A stretch of 33,170 nt of DNA from Flavobacteriales bacterium (GTDB lineage: Bacteria > Bacteroidota > Bacteroidia > Flavobacteriales > BACL11), in contig PAZP01000019.1 in assembly GCA_002715565.1 (NCBI GenBank), forward strand, positions 1-33,170, in the 5' to 3' direction. Under the pieces are notes generated by a model. That model was given only the letters and a program-made list of their open reading frames with translations. It was not told the origin of the DNA and searched no databases. Position numbers and translations under genes: made by a program. This document shows positions 1 through 29,254 of this stretch, one piece after another (position 1 is the stretch's first letter; each line of letters starts with the position of its first letter).

Positions 1-465
1 AAGAAATTATTGCAATATAATATACTTAATGATGTTCTTTTATCTGAACTCCAATATTATCATGGAGAAATTGAAATAAATGAAATGCACAGAAGAATGA
101 TTTATAATTCCGTATATGATAATATACATATGAATACCTTTAACTATGTTAATGCAGCGTTTGATAATTTATTATTTCGTTTTCCAACACAATATGAATT
201 TAGTCAAACATATACTATGCTTCAGGATAATACTTCTCAAATTGTTTTAGGTTCTTCTGGTAACAATAAAGAAGATTTTAGTTATATAATTACCAATACC
301 CGAGAATTTTATGAAGGAATTATAATTTGGTCATATCAGACGTTATTGGCTAGAATACCGACAGTTCAGGAATTAGATTATTTAATGCAAGTTTTTTATA
401 TTGATCATGATTTTCAGTGGGTACAAAGACAGATTATGAAAGATGATGAATATGCACAATTTTAA
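1..465 (+). CDS. Helical-repeat protein resembling DUF1549/DUF1553 modules (5' partial)
   Basis: The reading frame is open from the first base, so the true start lies outside the window; a TTG at 10 is in frame but is not a convincing start. 154 residues are visible. Two modules of about 50 residues can be read, each with a helix, an 'R-x-P-T-x-x-E' like turn, a second helix and an ending like 'DEYAQF'. They lie near residues 50-105 (FRFPTQYEF) and 107-154 (LLARIPTVQEL). This pattern recalls the C-terminal parts of DUF1549/DUF1553 proteins and of DUF4214 repeats, but the family assignment is inference. The next gene starts 10 bp downstream and carries the same type of module, so the two are probably co-transcribed and may work together. 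No catalytic residues can be recognised. The function is unknown. Confidence 0.6.
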   Translation, partial: KKLLQYNILNDVLLSELQYYHGEIEINEMHRRMIYNSVYDNIHMNTFNYVNAAFDNLLFRFPTQYEFSQTYTMLQDNTSQIVLGSSGNNKEDFSYIITNTREFYEGIIIWSYQTLLARIPTVQELDYLMQVFYIDHDFQWVQRQIMKDDEYAQF

Positions 466-475
466 GAAATATAAA

Positions 476-955
476 ATGAAAAGATTATCTATTTTATTAA
501 TTTTATTTTTAACTTTATTATCATGTAAGAAGGATGATCCTATTTATGATATTAATCAGATACAATCTCAATCTTATAATGCAAATAAAAATAAATTAAA
601 ATCTCCAGCTCAATATATTTCTATTCTATATGCAAATTTATTTCAGAAAGCCTTATCAGCTAATGAGCTTGTAGAAATTACCAGATGTATAGAATCGGTC
701 GGAGATAAGGAGTTAGTTCATGAAGTAATTATAAGTAATTTTATGAATAAAGAGGGCGTAATTATTCCAAGTGATTCTTTAATGAGATCAGATCTTAATT
801 TATTTATTGAAGAAACATATAAAAGATTTTATGTCAGAGATATTTCTGAAGCAGAAAGAGAATATTTTTTAAATTTCTTTTTATTGCACCCTGAAGTTTC
901 ATCAGAAATGGTATATACAGCATTTGCTTTATCTAACGAATATCAATTTTATTAA
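476..955 (+). CDS. Lipoprotein with the same DUF1549/DUF1553-like modules
   Basis: A 159-residue lipoprotein. I place the start at the ATG at 476, not the ATG at 443, because from there the protein begins with a lysine/arginine pair, a leucine-rich stretch and the lipobox LLSC (Cys17). The earlier start would put a polar tail in front of the signal peptide and overlap the upstream gene. The sequence after the cysteine, CKKDD, fits the surface-export signal described for Bacteroidetes lipoproteins. The rest is helical, with two modules (QYISILYANLFQKALSANEL, and from about residue 115 ETYKRFYVRDISEAE, ending in NEYQFY) that match those of the preceding gene. It is probably an outer-membrane-anchored partner of that protein. 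The function is unknown. Confidence 0.65.
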   Translation: MKRLSILLILFLTLLSCKKDDPIYDINQIQSQSYNANKNKLKSPAQYISILYANLFQKALSANELVEITRCIESVGDKELVHEVIISNFMNKEGVIIPSDSLMRSDLNLFIEETYKRFYVRDISEAEREYFLNFFLLHPEVSSEMVYTAFALSNEYQFY

Positions 956-965
956 AGTATAAGAT

Positions 966-2294
966 ATGAAAAGAAGAAAATTTATAAAAAATACCGTCTT
1001 AGGGGCTACTGCTATATCTATGCCTGTTGTACTGCCAGGAGGTAGATTGTTTGCAGCCACTGGTTCGGCAATGGCTGAACACTTAGTATTTGTTGCTTTT
1101 GCTGGAGGGGTTCGTCAGCAAGAATCTGTTTTACAAAGATATTTACTCGATAGTCAAGAATATCCTAGTGAGGGTAATATTATGTATAATTTATTAAATG
1201 GAGGTTATCCAACTGATAAAATAGTTTATGGGACTGATGGAACTGTTAGTGGTGATACACCAATACCAAAAATTCTAAATCAAACATTAGAAAGTCAAGG
1301 TACAATTTTTAAAGAAATGATTTCTTCTCATGCTGGACATTATGGAGGTCTTAATACATTATTAACAGGTAATTATCAATATACACAAGGTCTAAATAGT
1401 AAAAGTCAAATGCCAACAATATTTGAATATGTAAGAAGACATATGGGGGTTCCTGCATCAAAAGTATGGTATATTGGTAATGGTATTGGTAATTCTATCC
1501 CATTGTTAGATTATAGTATTCATCCTGATTATGGTTCTCAGTATGGAGCTAATTTTTTAGCTCCAACTATTACTTTTGGTTCAGATGGATTCAAGCATCT
1601 TAAGAATGCTAAAATATATCATCCTGAAGAAGAGCTTGACCCAATGTATAAAATGAAATATTTTTTAGATAATGTTTGGTATTCTCAGGGAAAATCATTG
1701 CCTAATATAGGAAATACAGAAGAAGAAAAAATTGAAATCAAGCAATTTTTTAAAGATATGTTTGAGAAAACAGAACAAGGAGTCATTGCGCATCCTCCTG
1801 TAAGTGGAGGTGAACTTGATTCAATAGGTTATGCCTGTGAGGTCATGAAAAGATTTAAGCCTAAATTATCTGTTGTATATTTATCTTCAGTAGATACTTG
1901 TCATAGCAATTTCACTGCTTACCTTCAAAATTTACATAGAGCAGATCATGGGGTAGGGCATTTGTGGAATTATATTCAAAATCAAGTTCCAGAAATGTCA
2001 GGAAATACAGCTATTATTTTAGCTCCTGAGCAAGGTAGAAATTTAGAGCCTAACAATATTGTTGATGCAAATGGTTTTTACTCATATGATCATAGTGATG
2101 AGAATACTAGAAGGGTTTTTGGAATGATGGCGGGTCCTGGTATTCAGACTAATCTTTCATTAGGAAGCGAAGGTAATTCCAAGGGGGACTTATTGAATAT
2201 AGCGCCTACAATTGCTGAGATTTTAGGATTTAAAGAGGATATGATTAACTCTGGCCTTACTGCAACAAATCAATCTTTATTTGATTTGATATAA
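966..2294 (+). CDS. Tat-exported DUF1501-like protein (alkaline phosphatase/sulfatase fold)
   Basis: 442 residues starting with a twin-arginine signal (KRRKFIK, then a weakly hydrophobic stretch to about residue 33), so it should be exported folded through Tat. The body has features I associate with the DUF1501 branch of the alkaline phosphatase superfamily: an early strand 'HLVFVAFAGGVRQQ', a histidine/glycine motif 'SSHAGHYGGLNTLLTGNYQYT', 'VVYLSSVDTCHSNF', 'HRADHGVGHLWNYI', and a late 'APEQGRNLEPN' followed by 'YDHSDENTRRVFGMMAGPGI'. Histidines and acids in these blocks could bind metal, but I cannot assign individual ligands. The gene sits between lipoprotein genes with gaps of 10 and 16 bp, as in DUF1501-containing envelope operons of other phyla. 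The substrate is unknown; a sulfatase or phosphatase role is possible but unproven. Confidence 0.65.
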   Translation: MKRRKFIKNTVLGATAISMPVVLPGGRLFAATGSAMAEHLVFVAFAGGVRQQESVLQRYLLDSQEYPSEGNIMYNLLNGGYPTDKIVYGTDGTVSGDTPIPKILNQTLESQGTIFKEMISSHAGHYGGLNTLLTGNYQYTQGLNSKSQMPTIFEYVRRHMGVPASKVWYIGNGIGNSIPLLDYSIHPDYGSQYGANFLAPTITFGSDGFKHLKNAKIYHPEEELDPMYKMKYFLDNVWYSQGKSLPNIGNTEEEKIEIKQFFKDMFEKTEQGVIAHPPVSGGELDSIGYACEVMKRFKPKLSVVYLSSVDTCHSNFTAYLQNLHRADHGVGHLWNYIQNQVPEMSGNTAIILAPEQGRNLEPNNIVDANGFYSYDHSDENTRRVFGMMAGPGIQTNLSLGSEGNSKGDLLNIAPTIAEILGFKEDMINSGLTATNQSLFDLI

Positions 2295-2310
2295 AGTTTG
2301 ATTTAAATTA

Positions 2311-3291
2311 ATGAGACTACTATATATTTATATATTATTTTTTGTTTTTATATCATGTAAAAAGGATCCCCATATAAATCCTTATGATAATGATGATTTA
2401 AATCCACCCAACTTAAATGATACAAATTATTTTAATAATCCTGCTTCTTTTTCAGCAATACAAAATAATATATTTTCACCTTATTGTGCAGATAATCCTG
2501 GATGCCATGACGGTACTTTTGAGCCTGACTTTAGAACAATAGAAAGTTCATACAGTACATTAGTTTATCAACCAGTCATTAAAAATAATTCTAATAGTAC
2601 GTTTCAATATAGAGTGATCCCTGGTGATGCTGAAAAAAGTGTATTATATGCTAGATTGCTTGCTAATGACTTAGGTGTTTCTACATTTGATCCTAACTCT
2701 CAAGTCATGCCTTTAACGGCAGATATTGTATATGATCCGCAAAGACAACATGAATGGCATAGTGTTAAGGATATTTTAATTTCAAATGTTAAACAATGGA
2801 TTGATGATGGTGCAAGAGATATTTTTGGCAATTCTCCAATGGAACCTAATAAGGTGCCGGAAATGAGAGGTTGTATTGCTTTTGCAGCAGGTCAGACTAC
2901 TCCTCTTAATAGAGAGCAGCCAAGAGGAAATATATATATTCCTTCTAATGTTAGTTATGTTGATTTTTGGTTTAGTGTTAGTGATGATTTATTTGAATCT
3001 AATCAATTAACATATAATCAGGTAAAGTTTTCTGAAGATTTGTTCGATTTTGATAATCAAGAATTTAGGTCTTTAGAAGTAGTTGCTAATCCAATAACTG
3101 AGACTGGATTTTATTCTAGTACACAAGAAAATTTTTATCATAAGTATACTCTCGATATGTCAAATTTTGATTCTGGAGATCTTATTTTTATAAAAATATA
3201 TGTTCAAGATGATGTTAATCCAGTAACTGAGATTCCAACAAATGGATCAGATTATCAATTTATTAAACATTTTAGTTTTACTGTTCTATGA
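2311..3291 (+). CDS. Cytochrome-c-like lipoprotein with CX5CH motif
   Basis: 326-residue lipoprotein (signal peptide with lipobox FISC, Cys16, followed by KKDP). Residues about 45-165 follow the layout of the cytochrome-c-like domains found in Bacteroidetes and Planctomycetes lipoproteins: 'IFSPYC...CH', a stretch 'VIPGDAEKSVLYARLL', a methionine-proline motif 'QVMPLTAD' that could supply the distal ligand, and the closing 'VKQWIDDGARDIFG'. The usual CXXCH is replaced by C59-x5-C65-H66, so covalent heme attachment is uncertain. The remaining 160 residues look like a beta-rich domain with no recognised family. Its stop overlaps the next start (ATGA), so the two proteins are probably made together. 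Confidence 0.65.
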   Translation: MRLLYIYILFFVFISCKKDPHINPYDNDDLNPPNLNDTNYFNNPASFSAIQNNIFSPYCADNPGCHDGTFEPDFRTIESSYSTLVYQPVIKNNSNSTFQYRVIPGDAEKSVLYARLLANDLGVSTFDPNSQVMPLTADIVYDPQRQHEWHSVKDILISNVKQWIDDGARDIFGNSPMEPNKVPEMRGCIAFAAGQTTPLNREQPRGNIYIPSNVSYVDFWFSVSDDLFESNQLTYNQVKFSEDLFDFDNQEFRSLEVVANPITETGFYSSTQENFYHKYTLDMSNFDSGDLIFIKIYVQDDVNPVTEIPTNGSDYQFIKHFSFTVL

Positions 3292-3722
3292 TTATTAATA
3301 GAAATTTTATTATCCTTCTTATTGTTATGTCTTTTTTATCCTGTAAAAAGAAAGATAATGTTTTGTTTAATATTTCATTGCAAGATACATATCCAACAAG
3401 TATTGTTGAATTTCAAGACAATATATTTGTTTCTTTAACTTATTCTCATAATGAAGGTTTTGTTGGATTTGCTGATCCAGACAGATTATCTTTAGAAATA
3501 AAAGATAGCCGTTTAGATAGTGCGGACTATTATCATTTAATACCAGTACATCCACCCAATCAAAGTTTGTCTGTTACTGGTGAGATATTAATAGAAATTG
3601 ATGCGCCTTTTATATTTGGAAATGGAATGTCAGAAACTTTATCTTATTCAATTCGTATTCAAGATAGTGAAATGCAATGGAGCAATGTTGTAGTAACACC
3701 TTCAATAATTGTAAACAAATGA
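3288..3722 (+). CDS. Small lipoprotein, unknown function
   Basis: 144 residues. Signal peptide with lipobox FLSC (Cys19) followed by KKKDN. The mature part is probably a single beta-sandwich: alternating hydrophobic strands such as 'DNIFVSLTYSHNEGFVGF', 'YYHLIPVHPP' and 'TLSYSIRIQDSEMQWSNVVVT', the last resembling an Ig/Fn3 C-terminal strand. It shares ATGA overlaps with the gene before and the gene after, so it is translationally coupled inside the operon. I do not recognise a family. It may be a small partner or anchor for the large secreted protein encoded next. Confidence 0.6.
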   Translation: MIINRNFIILLIVMSFLSCKKKDNVLFNISLQDTYPTSIVEFQDNIFVSLTYSHNEGFVGFADPDRLSLEIKDSRLDSADYYHLIPVHPPNQSLSVTGEILIEIDAPFIFGNGMSETLSYSIRIQDSEMQWSNVVVTPSIIVNK

Positions 3723-6700
3723 TAAGAAATTTCTTTTTCTTGATTATCTTGATGTTTTTGAGCCTTTCGGCTTTTTCTCAGTATGTTATGTCTAATTTAA
3801 CAGTATATGATTGTGAAGGTACACTTACTGATAGTGAAAGTAATACATTAAATCCAGGATGGTATTCTAGTAATGAAAACTATGAATTTACCATTTGTCC
3901 TTCTGGAGCACAAACTATTACTATCACTTTTAGTATGTTTCGAACTGAAGTTACTTATGACTATCTTATGATTCATGATGGTCCTAATAGTACTTATCCT
4001 GTTATTGGTGGACCTTATTCTGGTTTAAATATTCCTCCACAAATCACTTCTAATGGTTGTGTAACTATAACATTTGTGTCGGATCAAAATGTTAATGAAG
4101 AAGGTTTTGTCTTAAGTTGGGAAACTGAAATTTCTGTACCACCACCACCAATTATAACAATTCCAAATGCTGTTACTTGTAGTTCAAATGTTCTGCTATT
4201 TAATTTAGATAAGAAAATGCACTGTGATTCAGTTTATACCGCTCTAATTAACATAACAGGTCAAATTTCACAACAAGTATCAGCTTCTCCTATAAATTGT
4301 ATAAATGACTCTACGGATCAAATTGAACTAACTTTGTTTCCAGGCTTAAATCAAAGCGGTATTTATGATTTATCCTTACAAAGTTTTTTTTTAGATGCAT
4401 GTGATAGTATTTGGGATTTGTCAACCGATATACAATTTGTTATAAATGATTGTCCTCTACAAGTTGACATTGTTTCTACTCCAGATTCAGTTATATGTGA
4501 AGGAGAATGTGTTGATTTATTTGTAAATGTTTCAGGTGGTGATGTTTCATCATATAATTTTACATGGAATCCTCCCTTACCTAATAGTCCAGGTCCTCAT
4601 AATGTTTGTCCAACTATTAGTACTTTGTATTCAGTTCTTGTTTCTGACGCAGGTCCAGCGGCAAGTCAAACAGATAACATTCTTATTTCTGTTTTACCAC
4701 CCCCAGTAACACAATCATCATTTGATATTTGTCAAACTGGATCACCAATAAATTTAAATGCTAATCCTGTTGGTGGTATTTGGTCTGGAAATGGTATAGT
4801 TGATCCTAATGGTATTTTTTCTCCATATGGCTTACCTCCAGGAACTTATACTGTAGATTATCAGATAGGAGGTTGTGAGGATGATTTAGATATTACAATT
4901 TTAGAAGTTAATGCAGGAGATGATATTTCGGTTTGTGTTAACACTCCTGTTTTTAACTTGAGTTCATCTTTTACAACACCTGGTGGTGTTTGGTCTGGAT
5001 GTAGTTGTATTCAGTCAAATGGTAATATTAATGTTGGTTCTAATCCAACAATTATAACTGCAATATATACATTGCCTAATGGTTGTAGCGATACTTTATT
5101 AGTAAACGTAGTTAATAATATATTAATGCCACAGTCTACTAGTTTTTGTCAAAGGAGCGGAAATCATTCTTTATCTGTTTTTCCTTCTAATGGAGTATGG
5201 TCAGTATTGCCACAAAATTCACAAGCATCAAGCATTTGTATAAATCCTATTGATGAATTTCCATATCAAGAAGGGTGGGAGTTAGGTTTAAATGGATGGA
5301 CACACGATGTTAATAATGATTTTGATTGGCAAATAATTAGTGGACCAACTCCTTCAGGAAATACTGGTCCTAACTCTTCTTTACAAGGAAATAATTATAT
5401 CTACACAGAAGCATCTAATAATAATTCTCCTTCTAAAACAGCTGCTCTAATCAGTCCTTGTATTAATTTGTCCGAATATGATAATCCAGTTTTATACTTT
5501 TGGTATCATAAATATGGTAATGGGCAAGGTAGTTTTTCGATAGATGTTTCTTCTGATAATGGTAATACTTGGACATGGAATCATTGGTCAATTTTTGGTG
5601 ATATGGGTGATCAGTGGAATGAAATTGCGGTTGATCTTTCATCTTTTAATACTTCAGAAGTTTTGATTAGATTAAGAGTTGTGACTGGAGATAATTATAG
5701 ATCTGATGTCGCTGTAGATCAGCTTTCAATTTTAGGGGGTCCAATTTCTCCATCAGGCATTTTTTTAACTGAGGTTGCTAGCGCTGGTATTCATAATTTA
5801 GTATATTCTATTGAAGGTTGTTCAGATTTTGTTGATATAACTGTTAATGAAATTAATGCTGGAATTGATGAAACCTTTTGTCCTCAACAATCTCAATTTA
5901 ATTTAAATGGTTCTCCTGTGGGAGGAGTATGGAGTGGTAATGGTGTTGTAAATGCTAATGGAGTTTTTGATCCTTCTATCGCTCAGATAGGATATAATAA
6001 TTTAATATATACCTATAGTGGATGTACAGATACAGTAGAATTTTTGGTTATAGATACTGATATTCAATTAGATTCTTTGGTATTTTGTTTGAATTCAGGC
6101 TTACAAATTTTAAACATGAATATTGTTCCAAGAACACCTTGGGATGGTGTTTGGTCTGGGCCAGGTATAGTGAATTCTACTTTTCCTGGAGAATTTAACC
6201 CAGATTTAGCGGGTGTCGGGGTTCATAATATTCAATATTCTGCAAATACATGTGCAGATAACATTATTATTAATGTTTTGCCGCAATCTGTATTATTAGA
6301 TACATTAATTTGTTCTACATCTTCTGATCTTATTTTAGATATTTTTCCTTCTGGAGGTACTTGGGATGGTAATGGTATCATTAATTCGTCTACAGGACTG
6401 TTTTCTCCTTCGCAATTAGGGGTAGGTATACACTATGTTAGATATACCTCTTTAAGTAATTGTGTAGATACATTTGCAATTAATATATATGAGCCTCCTA
6501 TTTTAGAAATAAATGGATTAGATGATGTGTACTGTAGTGTTGACACAAATATTATTGTTTTAACTTCACCTTTATTAGGTGGTGTTCTTTCTGGTCCAGG
6601 AATTAATGGAAATATATTTAATCCTTCATTAGCTAATACAGGTTACAATACTATTACATATACTTATGGTTCAGGTAATTGCTCTCAGATTATTGAAAAA

Positions 6701-7807
6701 CAAGTTTTTATAAATGAAAAAATAAATGGATATTCTTACTACAGTAATGATTCTATATGTATTAATGATATTGCCGTAATTGGCATAAATGTAACTGGTG
6801 GTCTAGGAAATTTTTCTTTTACTTGGGATAATGGATTGAGTACTAGTTTTGAGCATTTGGTTTCTCCAATAGTATCTACTGATTATATTGTCAATGTTTC
6901 TGATGGATGTTCTGATAATTTTATTGATACAATTTCAATTTACGTTCATCCAACATTTAGCTTGTCATTTACCACATCTCAAAAAAAATGTTTTGGAGAT
7001 TTAGGTTACGCTAAGGTAGATATTTCTCCACAAGGTAATTATACATATTTTTGGAATTCAAATCCTGAATCATTTTCTGATAGTATTGCTCAACTTGTAA
7101 ATAGAAACTACAAGTTAATAGTTACGGATTTAAATACTAATTGTCAACTTGAAGATACTGTTACAATTCCTGGTTATTCAAATTTAAAGGCCTATTTTTC
7201 TCCAAATACAACAGAATGTGTTTCACTTTTAAATGGAGAAATACAGTTTATAAATAACTGTATCACTAAAGAAAGCGAGATATATTACACATCATTTTGG
7301 GATTTTGGAGACGGTAATACAACTAATTACATTGATCAACAAAGTCCAGTACATACATACTTAGATACAGGAATATTTGAAGTTAAATTATATCTTGAAA
7401 ATATTGGTGGATGCACTGATTCAATTAGTCAAACAATTTGTGTTAATCCTGATTACAAATTATATATTCCTAATAGTTTTACACCAAATGGTGATAATTG
7501 TAATGATAAATTTTTTGTCAAGGCTATAGGTTCAGTTTATTCTTTTAATATTAATATTTATAAGCGATGGGGTAGTGAACCTATATTTAATTCTAAAGAT
7601 ATAATTTACACTAATAATATGGAAGATGGTAATATGTGTAATACTATCCTTAATCAAGATTCATATTTTATGATGGGAGTATGGGATGGAAATATGAATA
7701 ATGGCAAACAAGCTAAGACAGGTGTGTATCCTTTTTTGATGACATATCAAATGGGAGAAAAAAGCGTATTGCAAGAAAAGATTGGCTATATATTATTAAT
7801 ACGTTAA
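3719..7807 (+). CDS. Giant T9SS-secreted protein: CUB, Ig-like repeats, MAM-like insert, PKD, type-B sorting domain
   Basis: 1362 residues from the ATG at 3719, chosen because it starts a clean signal peptide (MIRNFFFLIILMFLSLSAFS) and makes an ATGA overlap with the previous stop; a start at 3677 would add a polar leader. Order: CUB-like domain (about 20-145, with the 'YDYLMIHDGPN' and 'GFVLSWE' strands), beta domains to 330, then about seven copies of an Ig-like repeat of some 75 residues around 'GGxWSGxGI...GxFxP' (nucleotides near 4777, 4981, 5188, 5920, 6143, 6353, 6580), a MAM-like domain (about 512-674) lying inside the third copy, a PKD domain ('FWDFGDGNTT', about 1190-1240) and the C-terminal gliding-associated domain ('YIPNSFTPNGDNCND...', 1249-1362) used for T9SS export. 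CUB, MAM and PKD point to adhesion at the cell surface. The ligand is unknown. Confidence 0.85.
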   Translation: MIRNFFFLIILMFLSLSAFSQYVMSNLTVYDCEGTLTDSESNTLNPGWYSSNENYEFTICPSGAQTITITFSMFRTEVTYDYLMIHDGPNSTYPVIGGPYSGLNIPPQITSNGCVTITFVSDQNVNEEGFVLSWETEISVPPPPIITIPNAVTCSSNVLLFNLDKKMHCDSVYTALINITGQISQQVSASPINCINDSTDQIELTLFPGLNQSGIYDLSLQSFFLDACDSIWDLSTDIQFVINDCPLQVDIVSTPDSVICEGECVDLFVNVSGGDVSSYNFTWNPPLPNSPGPHNVCPTISTLYSVLVSDAGPAASQTDNILISVLPPPVTQSSFDICQTGSPINLNANPVGGIWSGNGIVDPNGIFSPYGLPPGTYTVDYQIGGCEDDLDITILEVNAGDDISVCVNTPVFNLSSSFTTPGGVWSGCSCIQSNGNINVGSNPTIITAIYTLPNGCSDTLLVNVVNNILMPQSTSFCQRSGNHSLSVFPSNGVWSVLPQNSQASSICINPIDEFPYQEGWELGLNGWTHDVNNDFDWQIISGPTPSGNTGPNSSLQGNNYIYTEASNNNSPSKTAALISPCINLSEYDNPVLYFWYHKYGNGQGSFSIDVSSDNGNTWTWNHWSIFGDMGDQWNEIAVDLSSFNTSEVLIRLRVVTGDNYRSDVAVDQLSILGGPISPSGIFLTEVASAGIHNLVYSIEGCSDFVDITVNEINAGIDETFCPQQSQFNLNGSPVGGVWSGNGVVNANGVFDPSIAQIGYNNLIYTYSGCTDTVEFLVIDTDIQLDSLVFCLNSGLQILNMNIVPRTPWDGVWSGPGIVNSTFPGEFNPDLAGVGVHNIQYSANTCADNIIINVLPQSVLLDTLICSTSSDLILDIFPSGGTWDGNGIINSSTGLFSPSQLGVGIHYVRYTSLSNCVDTFAINIYEPPILEINGLDDVYCSVDTNIIVLTSPLLGGVLSGPGINGNIFNPSLANTGYNTITYTYGSGNCSQIIEKQVFINEKINGYSYYSNDSICINDIAVIGINVTGGLGNFSFTWDNGLSTSFEHLVSPIVSTDYIVNVSDGCSDNFIDTISIYVHPTFSLSFTTSQKKCFGDLGYAKVDISPQGNYTYFWNSNPESFSDSIAQLVNRNYKLIVTDLNTNCQLEDTVTIPGYSNLKAYFSPNTTECVSLLNGEIQFINNCITKESEIYYTSFWDFGDGNTTNYIDQQSPVHTYLDTGIFEVKLYLENIGGCTDSISQTICVNPDYKLYIPNSFTPNGDNCNDKFFVKAIGSVYSFNINIYKRWGSEPIFNSKDIIYTNNMEDGNMCNTILNQDSYFMMGVWDGNMNNGKQAKTGVYPFLMTYQMGEKSVLQEKIGYILLIR

Positions 7808-8241
7808 TTAGTTTTTTCTTCAAATTCATAATAGTAATCTAGAACACACCATTTCATATTATCATTTTGTTTGAGAACTAAAAATTCAAAATGTTTTTCA
7901 GTATTTGAATAATCTGATTTATATTCAATTAAAACATAAAATCCATCTTCTAGTCCATCTATTTTACTTTTAAATAAGGATTCATGCATTTTTCTTGAAT
8001 TAATTTCCCCAAATTCTATCATCAAATTATTCATAAAAAAACTCCATCTTTCTTCATTATATTTCTCTTTTAATTCTATTGCTAGCATTTCATAAGATGC
8101 ATTAAATTTTTTTGTATTTATTTTATCAAACCATATTTCTGCTGCTACATTAGCTTCTTTAATGTATTTATCTGTATACTTTTGGGAGTAGCAGTTATTG
8201 TTTAAAATAAAAACAATGAGTAATATTATGCGATTTTTCAT
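7804..8241 (-). CDS. DUF4019 family exported protein
   Basis: 145 residues with an N-terminal signal peptide (about 1-19, ending CYSQ). The mature part matches the DUF4019 pattern I know: 'AAEIWFDKINTKKFNASYEML' at the start, a tryptophan after 'NEER', 'FGEINSRKMHES' in the middle, 'DGFYVLIEYKSDYSN' and a C-terminal 'KWCVLDYYYE'. DUF4019 proteins are small exported proteins, often annotated as uncharacterised, with a cystatin/NTF2-like look; no reaction is known. The gene converges with the giant T9SS gene and the two stop codons share three bases, leaving no room for a terminator between them. No TAnnTTTG promoter box is visible upstream. Confidence 0.75.
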   Translation of the reverse strand: MKNRIILLIVFILNNNCYSQKYTDKYIKEANVAAEIWFDKINTKKFNASYEMLAIELKEKYNEERWSFFMNNLMIEFGEINSRKMHESLFKSKIDGLEDGFYVLIEYKSDYSNTEKHFEFLVLKQNDNMKWCVLDYYYEFEEKTN

Positions 8242-8677
8242 AAAATAATTTGATATGTAAATTTAATAATTTACCAACTAAACAACAATTTTTACATTTT
8301 TTAATTATAAAAATATAAGAATTATAGTTAAATTATATGATGTAATCAGTCATATTTGCAATTTCTCCCTTCAATTATTCAGTAGTTTAATTTAAGTTAT
8401 TAACTATTTAACCTAGTAAAAACTATCCTCTTATCTAGTAAATATTATATTTTTTAAAAACACTTAAAACTTGTATAAAAAATTGATAATCAATAGTTTA
8501 AAGATATTTACATGAGTAGATTAATCTTTTTATTTTTTAATATATAGTTAAGCAACACACATATATATATACTTATTAACAATTTTATATTATCTATATC
8601 TAGTAAATTATAAAAATTTATATATTTTTTTCTATATTAGTGCCTGTAAAAATATTATTAACCAAAAAAATAAAATT
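8242..8677. other. 436-bp AT-rich non-coding region with short repeats
   Basis: No open frame that looks real in either direction. Contents: the octamer CTAGTAAA three times (8413, 8435, 8600), two of them inside the identical 12-mer TATCTAGTAAAT (8432-8443 and 8597-8608); a 13-base inverted repeat ATTGATAATCAAT (8482-8494); a 10-base palindrome AGATTAATCT (8518-8527); and an A-rich stretch just before the ATG at 8678. The promoter and any operator of the small gene at 8678 must lie here, but no exact TAnnTTTG box sits close to the start (closest: TATATTAG at 8633-8640, one mismatch). A small RNA cannot be excluded. Confidence 0.5.
8482..8494. promoter_or_regulatory. 13-bp inverted repeat, possible operator
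   Basis: Six-base arms ATTGAT and ATCAAT around one central base, in the long non-coding stretch about 185 bp upstream of the small gene at 8678. Its size and symmetry suit a dimeric regulator, and the core loosely recalls a Fur-type half-site arrangement. In DNA this AT-rich such palindromes also arise by chance, so this is a weak call. Confidence 0.2.
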
Positions 8678-8875
8678 ATGGCTTTTACGCACGAAAATTC
8701 AAAAGGAACAACTTATCATTTAAATTGTAAAGATGTTACTTTAAAATCAACAGGAAGAGTACAAAGAATCTATTTCTTCTCGAAAGACTCAAGATCAACT
8801 GGATGTGATAAACCAGATGGATATAATGTTAAGGAGAATGCAAGAACAGGTTTACCTTTCTTAACAAAGAAATAA
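8678..8875 (+). CDS. Small basic conserved protein, 65 residues
   Basis: 65 residues, lysine/arginine-rich, no signal peptide or membrane segment, so cytoplasmic. The layout 'MAFTHENSKGTTYHLN', 'RVQRIYFFSKD' and 'GYNVKENARTGLPFLTKK' matches a type of very short protein that I recall as widespread and annotated only as hypothetical in Bacteroidetes; the ending 'GYxVxENxRTGLPxLxKK' is typical. A beta-rich fold with possible nucleic-acid binding is a guess. The gene stands alone: a long non-coding leader upstream, an adenine-rich sequence (8664-8674) where flavobacteria place their translation signal, and a strong terminator 20 bp after the stop. That is the arrangement of an independently expressed, possibly abundant protein. 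Confidence 0.75.
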   Translation: MAFTHENSKGTTYHLNCKDVTLKSTGRVQRIYFFSKDSRSTGCDKPDGYNVKENARTGLPFLTKK

Positions 8876-8894
8876 TATTTCTTTTAAAAAATAT

Positions 8895-8922
8895 AAAAAG
8901 CCCTATTTTATAGGGCTTTTTT
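8895..8922 (+). terminator. Rho-independent terminator
   Basis: An 11-bp perfect stem (AAAAAGCCCTA with TAGGGCTTTTT), a five-base TTTTA loop, and a T-run. It lies 20 bp after the stop of the small gene at 8678. The A-run on the 5' arm means it can also work for the minus-strand metallopeptidase gene that ends at 8946, so it is probably bidirectional. Confidence 0.9.
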
Positions 8923-8945
8923 ATTTTATAGATATCTAATAATAA

Positions 8946-9626
8946 TTAATCTCTTAATATTGAGATGTAGTATAAAAGATAAGTTACGGCAGCTAAAGCA
9001 GATACTAAATATGTGCTAGCAGCCCATTTTAAAGCATCTTTAGCGTAAACAATTTCTTGATCGTTTGTTATATTTGATGATTTTAACCAATTTAAAGCTC
9101 TTTTACTTGCATCAAACTCAACAGGTAGGGTTATAAGTGTAAATGAAGTAATAACAGCTTGTAGGATAATAAATAAAAGTATAAGCTGATAGAAAGAGAA
9201 AAAACCTAAAAAACTAACTCCAAAAATACCTAGTAAAAAGATTGTACTCATCATTTTACTACTTAAATTTACCACAGGAACCATTTGAGATCTCATTTGT
9301 AACCATTGATAAGCATTAGCATGTTGTATAGCATGACCGCATTCATGAGCAGCAACTGCGGCGGCAGCTATATGTCTACCTTGATATACATCAGGACTTA
9401 AATTAACTGTTTTATCCATAGGATTATAATGATCAGTTAGTTTTCCTGGAACAGATATTACCTTTACATCATATATGTTATTGTCTTTAAGCATTTTTTC
9501 TGCAATCTCCTTACCACTCATTGAAGATGCAGTTGGTATTAAACTGTAATTTTTAAATTTACTTTTTAGTTTAGAATTAACAATTGCTCCTGCAATCATA
9601 AATCCAATCATAATTATCCAAATCAT
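8946..9626 (-). CDS. yugP: Membrane zinc metallopeptidase, YugP family
   Basis: 226 residues. Membrane segments at the N-terminus (about 2-18) and a group in the C-terminal half (about 125-165 and 205-222). The zinc motif is HECGH (His94, Glu95, His98), within 'AAVAAHECGHAIQHA', which is the signature of the neutral zinc metallopeptidase family that includes Bacillus YugP. The conserved 'NPMDKTVNLSPDVYQGRHIAA' block precedes it, as in other members. The protein should be an integral membrane protease; its substrates are not known, although quality control of membrane proteins is usually assumed. It is transcribed divergently from surE across an 85-bp gap and has its own -7 box at 9644-9651. 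Confidence 0.9.
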   Translation of the reverse strand: MIWIIMIGFMIAGAIVNSKLKSKFKNYSLIPTASSMSGKEIAEKMLKDNNIYDVKVISVPGKLTDHYNPMDKTVNLSPDVYQGRHIAAAAVAAHECGHAIQHANAYQWLQMRSQMVPVVNLSSKMMSTIFLLGIFGVSFLGFFSFYQLILLFIILQAVITSFTLITLPVEFDASKRALNWLKSSNITNDQEIVYAKDALKWAASTYLVSALAAVTYLLYYISILRD

Positions 9627-9643
9627 ATGTTTTATTTTTTATG

Positions 9644-9651
9644 CAAAATTA
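9644..9651 (-). promoter_or_regulatory. Candidate -7 promoter box (TAATTTTG) for yugP
   Basis: An exact match to the Bacteroidetes TAnnTTTG element on the minus strand, 17 bp before the yugP start codon. I see no clear -33 TTG at the right distance. Confidence 0.5.
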
Positions 9652-9685
9652 GAAAAAATCTAATTTATTATAACTAATATTATAG

Positions 9686-9693
9686 TAGATTTG
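9686..9693 (+). promoter_or_regulatory. Candidate -7 promoter box (TAGATTTG) for surE
   Basis: An exact TAnnTTTG match 18 bp before the surE ATG at 9712. It would give a leader of roughly a dozen bases for the surE-lpxB transcript. The box overlaps a TTG at 9691, which argues against that TTG being the start of translation. Confidence 0.5.
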
Positions 9694-9711
9694 TTATTTA
9701 AATTATCATTA

Positions 9712-10488
9712 ATGAGTAGACCACTTATTTTAGTTACCAATGATGATGGTATTATGTCTCCAGGAATCAGGAAATTAATTAAAATTATGAATTCCTTTGG
9801 TGATGTTATTGTTGTTGCTCCCAATAGTCCTCAGTCAGGAAAAAGTCATGCCATTACAATTGAAGGTGGAATAAAATGTACTAAGGTAATTATAGATGAT
9901 GGACCACAAATTGAATATTCATGTAGTGGAACTCCTGTTGATTGTGTAAAGTTAGCAGTTTATAAATTACTTGAAAGAAAACCTGACCTTTGTGTTTCAG
10001 GCATTAATCATGGTTCTAATTCATCTGTAAATGTTATATATTCTGGAACAATGGCTGCTGCAATAGAAGGATATATAGAAGGTGTGCCTTCTATTGGCTT
10101 TTCACTTTTAGATTTCTCTAAAGATGCTGATTTTTCTGAAGTAGATAAATACATCAAATATATTACAACCGTTGTGTTAAATAACTTTGATAATAAAAAT
10201 ATTTGTTTGAATGTAAATATACCTAAGAGATTAAAGAATATAAGTATAAAAGGAATAAAGGTTTGTAGACAAGCTTATGCGAATTGGGCGGAAAGGTATG
10301 AAGAAAAAATTGATGAAAATGGAGTGAAAACTTATTGGTTGACAGGAGAATTTATAAATTTTGATTCTGGTAAAGATACTGATGAATGGTATTTAAAAAA
10401 TCATTTTATAACAATAGTTCCAATTCAGGTTGATCTAACAAATCATAATAATTTACCATTGTTAAATAAATTAATATTAAATGAATAA
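9712..10488 (+). CDS. surE: 5'-nucleotidase SurE
   Basis: 258 residues from the ATG at 9712; a longer frame opens at a TTG at 9691 but overlaps the promoter box, and the usual SurE start is right before 'PLILVTNDDG'. SurE removes phosphate from nucleoside 5'-monophosphates (and sometimes polyphosphate) in the cytoplasm using a divalent metal. Visible signature parts are the metal-binding Asp11-Asp12 in 'VTNDDG', 'VVAPNSPQSGKSHAIT', 'SGTPVDCVKLA', 'GINHGSNSSVNVIYSGTMAAAIEG', and 'NVNIPK' near 195. The length is normal. The next gene starts inside its last codons (8-bp overlap), so it is coupled to the small membrane protein gene and lpxB, an order I recall from other Bacteroidetes. Confidence 0.95.
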   Translation: MSRPLILVTNDDGIMSPGIRKLIKIMNSFGDVIVVAPNSPQSGKSHAITIEGGIKCTKVIIDDGPQIEYSCSGTPVDCVKLAVYKLLERKPDLCVSGINHGSNSSVNVIYSGTMAAAIEGYIEGVPSIGFSLLDFSKDADFSEVDKYIKYITTVVLNNFDNKNICLNVNIPKRLKNISIKGIKVCRQAYANWAERYEEKIDENGVKTYWLTGEFINFDSGKDTDEWYLKNHFITIVPIQVDLTNHNNLPLLNKLILNE

Positions 10489-25624: not shown

Positions 25625-28600
25625 ATGAAAAAAATCATAGCGTTAATTTTTATTGCTTTTTTAAATGTAAATACTTTTGCAACACATTTTGTTGGAGGTT
25701 CGATAACATGGGAATGTAATGATGACCCTACCAGTGTAGATTTTGGAAAGTTTACTTTTATTTTAAAATTTTATAGAGATTGCCAAGGAATGAATCCAGC
25801 TTCAAATGGCCCTGGAGGTATAGAAACACTAACCGTACATGGACATCCAACCATAACAAATATAGATGTATTGTGGGATAATACACTAGATATCTCTCCA
25901 GTGTTAGGTGGATTACCAAACTGTTATGATTGTAATACAATGCCTGCCGGATTTAGTCAAAAAGGCGTATTAATTCATGAAATAACATATAAATCTTTAC
26001 CTATAAATTTAGGAAATGGTAATATCCCTGATCCTACAGGAGCAGTATGGAATCCAATTACTAACGAGTATGATGTTTTGCCAAGAGGTTGGCATTTTAC
26101 ATGGGGTGGTGGTGCAAGAAATAATTGTGATAACACAACACAATGCGGGAATTGGCTTTTAAGAGCTATAATGTATCCATATACAAAAAACACATCTATT
26201 TTACCATTCATATATGAAGATGCATATCCTTGTTATGATGCATCTCCTGAGTTTAAGGAAAAAGCAAAAACACTTATTTGTAATAATATTCCTTTTTCAT
26301 ACAGTCATTTAGCTTTTGATCCGAATTTTGATAGTTTGTCTTATTCATGGGCAAATCCACTACAAGGATCTGCTTTTAACTATGATCCAGCTTTTCCTTT
26401 AGCTGATAGTATGACCTTTTCAAATTTAGCTAATGGAGGAGTATATAACTTTTCATTGAATCAACAAATACCGACTAATCCCGCAAATCCTTTGACATTA
26501 AATCCTGGAACTGGAGAGATTTCTTTTCTAAATGATCAATTACAAGGAAATTTTATTACATGTGTTAGAGTACGTTCTGTTAAATGTTTTCAACCAATTG
26601 CAGATGTTTTTAGGGAGGTGCAAATGGTAACAACAGCAACAGGATGTAATCTTCCAGCTGGTGGTACAAATACTCCACCTGACATCTCTGCTCCAATAGG
26701 AACTCATGTATGGGATCAGTATATTAATTCTGCAGGTATGCCATCTTATGAAACATGGGTGAAAGCTGGAGAATTAGTAGAATTTACTATAGACGCTAAT
26801 GACATTGATATGCAAAATATTGATGTATCAATTGAAGGGTCACAACTTAGTACTTCAACACTTCCTAATGGAATGCCTAGCGCTCTTGCGACTCCTGCTG
26901 ATTGGAGTATATTATCTTCTACTCCTGGCAACACTCAAGGAAAATTTAGTTGGGATTCTAGTTGTGAACATTTACAAAAGGATAGTTGTGCAGGTCAGTT
27001 AGGTTTAGATTTTAGCTTTAATATCAAAGCTGTTGATCATATGTGCCCTGCAAATGGTACTACGATTGCAAACTTAACTATTCATGTTATTCCACCAACA
27101 CCTGACCTTAGATGTGTTGCAGTTGATGACCAGGGAGATGTTGAATTGTCCTGGTATTATCCCTCTTCAGTAATAGATTTTAATTATGATATATATTTTT
27201 CAAAGAACCCTAATTTAGGTTTTTCAAAAATTGCTTCTGTTTCACACCCTGACAGCACTTATTTGCATAGTGGTTCTGAGGCTGATATAAATTCTAGCTA
27301 TTATTATCTTGTATCTGTTGGCGCTTGTCAAAATTCTGCACCTAATATTGCATTGCAAGTTGATTCAATTTCTGACACATTGAAAACTATGTATTTAAAT
27401 GCAACAGAAATTAATTCAGTACCTATTGTTGCTAATCTATTGTGGAATCCTATGTGCAAAAATTGGACAGTAACTGCTCAACAACCACACTTATTTAATT
27501 TAGCAACCACTGAAAAAAATTATTCTCTTTATTATGAAAAAGATCCAATAACTGGTTTTAACATGTTTATGCAACATCCAGATACTTTCATGCAAAAACA
27601 ATCAGATTCTTGTTATTATACACCTCGTTTTTATATTGAAATTGGTGATGAAAGCGGCTGTTCTTCCAGATCTTCTCTTGCAAGTGTTTTACTTGCTGAT
27701 GATCAAGATCCAGATATGCCTATTATTAAAGATGTTTCTGTAAATAGTTCAGGTCAATCAGTTATATCATGGGAACCATCTTTTGGTGCGGAGTTTTATG
27801 CTGTTTACTTATTTAGTTCAGATGGCTGGATTCCTATAGATACTGTCTATAATTCCACCACCTTTATATATAATAACTCTAGTGCTAGTCAAGAGTCAGA
27901 AATTTTTAGTATTAGAGCACTAGACAGTTGTTATAATGGGTCACTTGCTAGCTATGATCAGAATATGCAACATAATTCAATTTACTTACAAGAAAAAATT
28001 AATGCTTGTGATCATACTGTTGATTTTTCATGGAATGAGTATATAAATTGGGAAAACGGATTAAGTTATTATAAAATATTTGTTGAAGAAATTGATACAC
28101 TTGGCAATATTATAAATAAGGAATTTAAAGAATTTGATGAAGATTTTTTATTAAATGTTAATGATGGTTTTAATTATATTGTTAATGTTAATGCTTACAA
28201 TTACGATTCTTCATATTCTGCACAATCAAATACTTTAACTTTTATACCTGATTTGCCAGCTACACCTGATTACCTATATATTGATTATGCTAGTGTTAAT
28301 CATGAAAATGATGCTGTTGAGATTAATTGTTTAACAGATGATCAGGCTGTTCTAAATCATTATGATGTACTCCGTTCTGAGGATAATAGTTTAGTTAAAA
28401 TAGGGCAGATAAATACTGTTAATAGTTCAATAATTCATTATACTGATGAAACAGCGAATGTTTATGAAAAATCATATAAGTATTATGTTTTGCCTGTTGA
28501 TACATGTGGTCAAAGATTGTTTACACCTCCTGTTTTATGGAATCAGTATATTAATGATACATCACATGCTAAAACTATTTTATTGGAAACAATGATTAAT

Positions 28601-29254
28601 TTAGATTATAAAGGAGGTTTGCCAATAGATATTCCATATAATGATAATCTTTCTGATTGGGGAGAAGGAGATATCACAAGTCAATATACGAATACCTTAA
28701 GTTTTAATGAATATGAAAAATGGTTGGGTAATGTTGAAAAATATGATTTATATAGATCAGTAAATGGTGGATTAACATATAATACAATACCATTATATTC
28801 ATGGGATAGAATTTCTGACCCTATGGAACCATTAGAATATATTGATATAGTAACAGCTTACGGAAAAGATGATGGCAGAATTTGTTATTATATTCATGCA
28901 ATAGAAAGAGATACGTTACCATATGGAGCAGTACCAGAAGGTAGTTATTCTAATATTTCATGTGTTTCTCAAACACCGATTTTGTATGTTCCTTCTGTAT
29001 TTACACCTAATGGAGATGATCATAATGAAATATTTTTTCCTGTCTCTTTCTTTGTTGATGAAAAAGGCTATTCTTTTTCGGTATATAATAGAAATGGAAC
29101 TCAATTATTTACAACAAATGATCCTCAAAAAGGTTGGGATGGAACATTTTTAGGAAATGTTGTTCAAAATGGTGATTATATATATCACATTCAATATATA
29201 AATGGCGTTGGTGAATTAATTGAAAAAAAGGATGTTATTACCTTGGTAAGGTAA
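25625..29254 (+). CDS. Large T9SS-secreted protein with gliding-associated C-terminal domain
   Basis: 1209 residues. Signal peptide (about 1-19, ending FATHF). The N-terminal domain (about 19-340, 'HFVGGSITWEC...FTFILKFYRDCQG') is one I recall at the front of many large gliding-associated Bacteroidetes proteins, with many cysteines. Then come Ig/Fn3-like segments (about 345-1105; for example 'DVELSWYYPSSVIDFNYDIYFSKN', 'VISWEPSFGAEFYAVYLF', 'EKWLGNVEKYDLYRSVNGGLTYNT') and the type-B sorting domain at the end ('YVPSVFTPNGDDHNEIFFPV...GWDGTFLG...GDYIYHIQYI...VITLVR', about 1112-1209). It should be exported by the T9SS and act at the cell surface. It has its own -7 box. It stands alone between a transporter and guaB, so no partner is obvious from its place. 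Confidence 0.85.
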   Translation: MKKIIALIFIAFLNVNTFATHFVGGSITWECNDDPTSVDFGKFTFILKFYRDCQGMNPASNGPGGIETLTVHGHPTITNIDVLWDNTLDISPVLGGLPNCYDCNTMPAGFSQKGVLIHEITYKSLPINLGNGNIPDPTGAVWNPITNEYDVLPRGWHFTWGGGARNNCDNTTQCGNWLLRAIMYPYTKNTSILPFIYEDAYPCYDASPEFKEKAKTLICNNIPFSYSHLAFDPNFDSLSYSWANPLQGSAFNYDPAFPLADSMTFSNLANGGVYNFSLNQQIPTNPANPLTLNPGTGEISFLNDQLQGNFITCVRVRSVKCFQPIADVFREVQMVTTATGCNLPAGGTNTPPDISAPIGTHVWDQYINSAGMPSYETWVKAGELVEFTIDANDIDMQNIDVSIEGSQLSTSTLPNGMPSALATPADWSILSSTPGNTQGKFSWDSSCEHLQKDSCAGQLGLDFSFNIKAVDHMCPANGTTIANLTIHVIPPTPDLRCVAVDDQGDVELSWYYPSSVIDFNYDIYFSKNPNLGFSKIASVSHPDSTYLHSGSEADINSSYYYLVSVGACQNSAPNIALQVDSISDTLKTMYLNATEINSVPIVANLLWNPMCKNWTVTAQQPHLFNLATTEKNYSLYYEKDPITGFNMFMQHPDTFMQKQSDSCYYTPRFYIEIGDESGCSSRSSLASVLLADDQDPDMPIIKDVSVNSSGQSVISWEPSFGAEFYAVYLFSSDGWIPIDTVYNSTTFIYNNSSASQESEIFSIRALDSCYNGSLASYDQNMQHNSIYLQEKINACDHTVDFSWNEYINWENGLSYYKIFVEEIDTLGNIINKEFKEFDEDFLLNVNDGFNYIVNVNAYNYDSSYSAQSNTLTFIPDLPATPDYLYIDYASVNHENDAVEINCLTDDQAVLNHYDVLRSEDNSLVKIGQINTVNSSIIHYTDETANVYEKSYKYYVLPVDTCGQRLFTPPVLWNQYINDTSHAKTILLETMINLDYKGGLPIDIPYNDNLSDWGEGDITSQYTNTLSFNEYEKWLGNVEKYDLYRSVNGGLTYNTIPLYSWDRISDPMEPLEYIDIVTAYGKDDGRICYYIHAIERDTLPYGAVPEGSYSNISCVSQTPILYVPSVFTPNGDDHNEIFFPVSFFVDEKGYSFSVYNRNGTQLFTTNDPQKGWDGTFLGNVVQNGDYIYHIQYINGVGELIEKKDVITLVR

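Follow-up and report, generated by a model that had tools for sequence, protein, structure and literature searches.

We found that five genes, A to E, form a conserved cell-envelope operon that is kept in about one fifth of the sampled Bacteroidia species. The product of the third gene, C, has an alkaline-phosphatase/sulfatase fold according to its predicted model, with an altered active site. The likeliest explanation, to which we give a probability of about 0.35, is an envelope complex in which C carries one metal and exchanges electrons with a cytochrome, D, while in one of two types of the block a secreted protein, F, is displayed.

The window, that is, the whole stretch of 33,170 nucleotides analysed here (contig bases 1-33170), belongs to a 1.37 Mb genome that is 81% complete and whose closest named relatives are Flavobacteriales MAGs, one of which (L030) shares 90% in gene C. 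Six genes, A to F, occupy 1-7807 on the same strand, and gene A is truncated because window base 1 is also contig base 1. The tight packing described by the sequence-only reading, with gaps of 16 bp or less and two ATGA overlaps, was confirmed: the A/B, B/C and C/D gaps are 10, 10 and 16 bp (taking the start of B as 476), and the overlaps lie at 3288-3291 (D/E) and 3719-3722 (E/F). The genes are as follows.

1-465, plus strand: gene A, of which the contig end leaves the C-terminal half; helical protein resembling DUF4214 and phycobilisome linkers, about 300 aa in relatives
476-955, plus strand: gene B, small helical lipoprotein resembling DUF4214, with CKKDD at the lipidated Cys; the open frame extends from 443
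966-2294, plus strand: gene C, predicted Tat-exported alkaline-phosphatase-superfamily protein, DUF1501-like, Tat motif MKRRKFIK
2311-3291, plus strand: gene D, lipoprotein whose N-terminal part is a PSCyt1-like cytochrome domain and whose C-terminal part is an Ig-like beta sandwich
3288-3722, plus strand: gene E, small Ig/fn3-like lipoprotein, weak fn3 match in 2/29 members
3719-7807, plus strand: gene F, secreted T9SS type B protein of 1362 aa
3812-4117, 5288-5737, about 7277-7438 and 7466-7795, plus strand: CUB, MAM, PKD and CHU_C domains of F

Neither Pfam nor NCBIfam gave an accepted call on the window copies of A-E. PADLOC matched none of A-F among known anti-phage defence profiles, and a defence-system reading was dropped on that basis. 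The promoter scan returned fewer sites than shuffled sequence did and was uninformative. Downstream of the block, a likely two-way terminator lies between two genes (8895-8921); it consists of a 12-bp stem without mismatches and has a T tail on each strand. Another large T9SS type B protein with CHU_C, in which no further domain was recognised, lies at 25625-29254 and adjoins IMP dehydrogenase.

To determine how far the gene order is conserved in other Bacteroidota, a species-level scan of 84,980 genomes was conducted with C. It yielded 33 loci, nearly all of which keep the order A-B-C-D-E, even in Saprospiraceae and Chitinophagales, where identity falls to about 40%. HMMs of A-E were then run on sixty additional regions, most of them 13-20 kb long, and uninterrupted same-strand A-B-C-D-E was observed in 65 of 83 distinct loci. 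Most of the remainder are truncated at contig ends or contain missed ORFs, and a single locus among the 83 (L062) is rearranged, to A-D-B-C-E. The 311 junctions have a median gap of 2 bp, with 92% at 50 bp or less and 41% overlapping, and the neighbours outside the block differ by family. By our own count, full-length C (E < 1e-100) is present in 88 of 395 Bacteroidia genomes, and a hand count showed that 85 of the roughly 89 genomes with C or D have both. In a separate 297-genome sample of the phylum, C occurred only in the window genome and one other, and the listed genomes without a match all come from the window's order. The operon is thus real and its gene order is conserved far beyond chance. 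That six unrelated genes merely came to lie side by side has next to no probability and is refuted by synteny, since the order holds to about 40% identity while the outer neighbours change.

Several loci depart from the common layout. L055 carries two additional genes (350 and 456 aa) between A and B (6128-9987), and L218 holds a decayed copy (7705-9312) consisting of a short A, a D without heme site, and E, with B and C absent. L141 (8627-9724) and L142 each have a shortened C (337-365 aa) that stands alone behind an M20 peptidase gene, the other four genes of the block being absent. Within the window's family, about 20 loci encode, upstream of A, a T9SS type A protein that contains a Kazal-like domain (for example L033:7179-8471).

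The tree of C falls into two clades separated by a branch of 0.76 with a support of 100/100, and the same split into types I and II forms one branch in the trees of A, B, D and E (support 100, 89, 100 and 90). This common split, which also speaks against a chance grouping, indicates that the block was duplicated and has been inherited as a unit; several genomes hold both types. M20 peptidase, GpmI and thioredoxin-domain genes, named from sequence, recur beside type II blocks and were judged housekeeping-like neighbours. The window block is type I. Gene F follows immediately in 42 of the 48 type I rows, among which at least four (L030, L042, L043 and L125) are truncated by a contig end, and in 0 of 35 rows on the other side. 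The six-gene surface operon proposed by the sequence-only reading is therefore a conserved envelope operon with a core of five genes, A-E, and F goes only with type I.

The T9SS sorting domain assigned to F was borne out: its C-terminal CHU_C scores 44.5 bits against a cut-off of 27, as in type B cargo, and CUB, MAM and PKD likewise exceed their Pfam cut-offs. Type B cargo is held by SprF and PorP barrels (PMC9143113). F resembles SprB/SprF-type T9SS adhesins in being a large protein with a type B CTD and in being followed by a PorP/SprF gene in some loci. It differs from them in the A-E block fixed before it, in its CUB domain, and in the window locus, which has no adjacent SprF; the window genome does encode four PorP/SprF genes and T9SS cargo.

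We then examined protein C, whose AlphaFold model (pTM 0.83) was placed by Foldseek in the sulfatase/alkaline-phosphatase superfamily at E 6.6e-10, with sulfatases and LtaS-type enzymes nearest. The Tat signal noted earlier is present in the window, the motif RRxF occurs in 76 of 83 C sequences, and TatC is encoded in the window genome. C was aligned jointly, as 83 sequences, with 24 DUF1501 proteins and 4 phosphodiesterase-like proteins. In line with what is established for the superfamily, we take its first Asp to be a metal ligand and its Thr/Ser to be the nucleophile. The following positions were compared.

1104-1106, plus strand: C Gly47, where active phosphodiesterases have the metal-2 Asp; Gly in all 83 C and all 24 DUF1501 sequences, Asp in 3 of the 4 phosphodiesterase-like proteins
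1338-1340, plus strand: C His125, at the position of the Thr/Ser nucleophile; His in all 83 C and all 24 DUF1501 sequences, Thr or Ser in the phosphodiesterase-like proteins that align here
1893-1904, plus strand: C Asp310 and His313, predicted metal-1 ligands kept; present in every C, DUF1501 and phosphodiesterase-like sequence
2028-2039, plus strand: C Glu355-x-Gly-Arg, E-x-G-R replacing D-H-G; Glu in 80 of 83 C and 22 of 24 DUF1501 sequences, Asp in all 4 phosphodiesterase-like proteins
2091-2093, plus strand: C His376 (DH motif), predicted metal-1 ligand kept; H in 83/83 C, 24/24 DUF1501 and 4/4 phosphodiesterase-like proteins

C thus shares its fold and metal-1 ligands with sulfatases and type I phosphodiesterases but lacks their nucleophile and metal-2 Asp, and with these the two-metal site. 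The assignment of C as DUF1501-like stood as to fold and residue pattern, whereas Pfam makes no such call on the window protein: PF07394 (DUF1501) gave no match there at E up to 1, and matched 1 of 30 relatives at 2e-4. The profile comparison of C with DUF1501, which reached 97.5% and fell to 70% once signal peptides were removed, was discounted as evidence in its higher value, and the claim is carried by the residue pattern (G, H, E.GR, DH); the Tat signal and the fold are shared as well. Given this modest similarity without signal peptides, C is called DUF1501-like and not a member.

The altered site bears on what C may do. A polymer-processing hydrolase, as implied by the surface complex for polymer binding and processing of the sequence-only reading, in which C would strip sulfate or phosphate from polysaccharide captured by F, is consistent with the nearest folds, the kept metal-1 ligands and the CUB and PKD domains of F. 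We consider it quite unlikely, as the nucleophile and the metal-2 Asp are replaced in every sequence, the recurrent neighbours identified are not polysaccharide-degradation genes, and type II blocks have no F. Another possibility, tentative yet worth weighing, is that C is a non-enzymatic binding or chaperone protein and A-E a platform for the assembly or attachment of surface polymers or adhesins, with F as its type I client and D sensing redox or serving structurally. The loss of both residues in all 83 sequences points this way, as does residue 356, which varies among H, C, Q and I, suggesting that the site may not be catalytic. So do the strict tie of F to type I and the finding that DUF1501, DUF1800 and chitin synthase genes travel together in some Proteobacteria (PMC5122149), which suggests a surface-polymer role. 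By contrast, Asp310, His313, His376, His125 and Glu355 are near-invariant across very divergent sequences, as in a working site, and type II lacks the supposed client.

Protein D is probably a surface cytochrome, judging from its sequence, with the following predicted heme ligands.

2485-2508, plus strand: predicted heme-binding site CADNPGCH, CX5CH in the window and CX4CH in 74/77 relatives
2707-2712, plus strand: Met133-Pro134, predicted axial heme ligand, invariant in 62 sequences and in register with the PSCyt1 MPP

Among the 62 sequences, C59, C65, H66, M133, P134 and W163 are invariant. The cytochrome part of D aligned with a PSCyt1 profile built from two sequences at a probability of 96% and E 4.9e-9, with the heme Cys/His and the Met in register. 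Compared with PSCyt1 (PF07635), D shows the domain-wide similarity, the Met ligand and the WI..GA end, but not the CXXCH heme site, so that the earlier cytochrome-like call holds for a domain with an unusual site. The second half of D is an Ig-like sandwich, and Foldseek of D returned weak matches to this part only and no cytochrome match. ResB cytochrome maturation is present in the window genome. Related CX4CH domains also occur in Bacteroidota proteins with Cu2_monoox_C (L206 and L208 above the Pfam cut-off, L211 weak), and in L214 beside a near-cut-off PSCyt1 match. As a predicted lipo-cytochrome, D could instead bring electrons from an outside substrate (a metal, phenol or humic compound) to the respiratory chain, with C as an accessory metal carrier; PSCyt/PSD genes have been proposed to take part in redox reactions (PMC2754498). 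With one heme site only and neither a porin nor a multiheme partner in the block, such a respiratory or metal-oxidising system appears very improbable.

Profiles were also built for the first two genes. DUF4214 (PF13946) was matched at 0.1 or better by 20 of 28 A relatives (best 3e-8) and by 23 of 31 B relatives; window B scores 20.1 bits, below the cut-off of 23.2, and A also matches phycobilisome linkers. Against DUF1800 (PF08811), A gave a weak match of 72% over 244 columns, seven control families giving 1.4% or less. DUF1800 usually lies next to DUF1501, at shared loci, which makes this pairing suggestive, though not proof. The DUF1549/DUF1553 pair that the sequence-only reading had inferred for A and B was rejected by profile comparison at about 3% or less: the values for DUF1549/DUF1553 (PSCyt2/PSD1) were 3.2% and 0.4%, that of A against PSD1 was 3%, and stray weak Pfam matches fell at 0.02-0.08. 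A match of A to the PDB entry 'Bam M' was judged to be chance (E 0.19, across the signal region).

The block is a variation on the known theme of DUF1501 gene sets. Like DUF1501-DUF1800 pairs, it combines a Tat signal and an alkaline-phosphatase fold carrying the same remodelled site (GG, H, D..H, E.GR, DH) with a helical partner encoded next door, the DUF1800 match of A bearing on the latter. Beyond the missing PF07394 match, it differs in adding a cytochrome, an Ig-like protein and a second helical lipoprotein; the DUF1501-DUF1800 pair itself lacks a cytochrome, so D is not a universal partner. The earlier comparison with planctomycete sets (PSCyt1-PSCyt2-PSD1 with DUF1501) held for C and D, which likewise join a PSCyt1 cytochrome domain to a DUF1501-type protein, and failed for A and B, which match neither PSCyt2 nor PSD1. 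The block's cytochrome is, moreover, a separate lipoprotein with CX4CH instead of CXXCH. Planctomycete-type PSCyt1/DUF1501 pairs exist in Bacteroidia too (L152/L192 and L153/L193). DUF1501 has been described as lacking biochemical characterisation (PMC4452313), and a survey states that nothing is known of PSCyt gene functions (PMC5615132). In agreement with the earlier claim of no described function, the open-licence papers searched contained no description of the A-E block or of a function for A-E, and gave none for DUF1501.

As for location, the earlier reading had counted three lipoproteins. The lipoboxes of B, D and E are present in the window and A has one in relatives, bringing the total to four of six. 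Their consensus starting with the lipid Cys, C-K-K-[DE]-[DE], is close to the tested Bacteroidetes surface-export signal C-X-K-(D/E)2-X (PMC5080379), suggesting that these lipoproteins are probably surface-exposed.

The gene unit, its two types and the residue changes that C has in common with DUF1501 stand on firm ground. In the model that we favour, A-B-C-D-E would act as one cell-envelope complex, with A, B, D and E as outer-membrane lipoproteins, probably on the surface side. A and B would form a helical scaffold, and A, B and E would hold C and D. Tat-exported C would have a site rebuilt for one metal and without a nucleophile, the ligands being Asp310, His313, His376 and perhaps His125 and Glu355. 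D, as a mono-heme cytochrome, would pass electrons to or from C, making the C-D pair an oxidoreductase and not a hydrolase, with an extracellular or cell-wall compound as its possible substrate. F, with its CUB and PKD domains, would in type I be anchored on the outside by a PorP/SprF-like barrel and would tie the complex to a surface or a polymer. Against a complex, a soluble Tat-exported C is expected to be periplasmic, whereas the lipoproteins look surface-bound; against its redox nature count the Foldseek result for D, the DUF1501-DUF1800 pairs without cytochrome and the variable residue 356.

DUF1501 proteins and planctomycete-type cytochromes are abundant yet unexplained, and A-E is a compact form of such sets, with subunits that can be separated, in about one fifth of the sampled Bacteroidia species. 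A broader and rather speculative extension is that DUF1501-type proteins, C included, may be extracytoplasmic metalloenzymes in which the alkaline-phosphatase fold has turned from two-metal hydrolysis to one-metal redox chemistry, A-E then being a surface oxidoreductase with its own cytochrome. The residue changes common to C and DUF1501 make the chemistry of DUF1501 directly testable.
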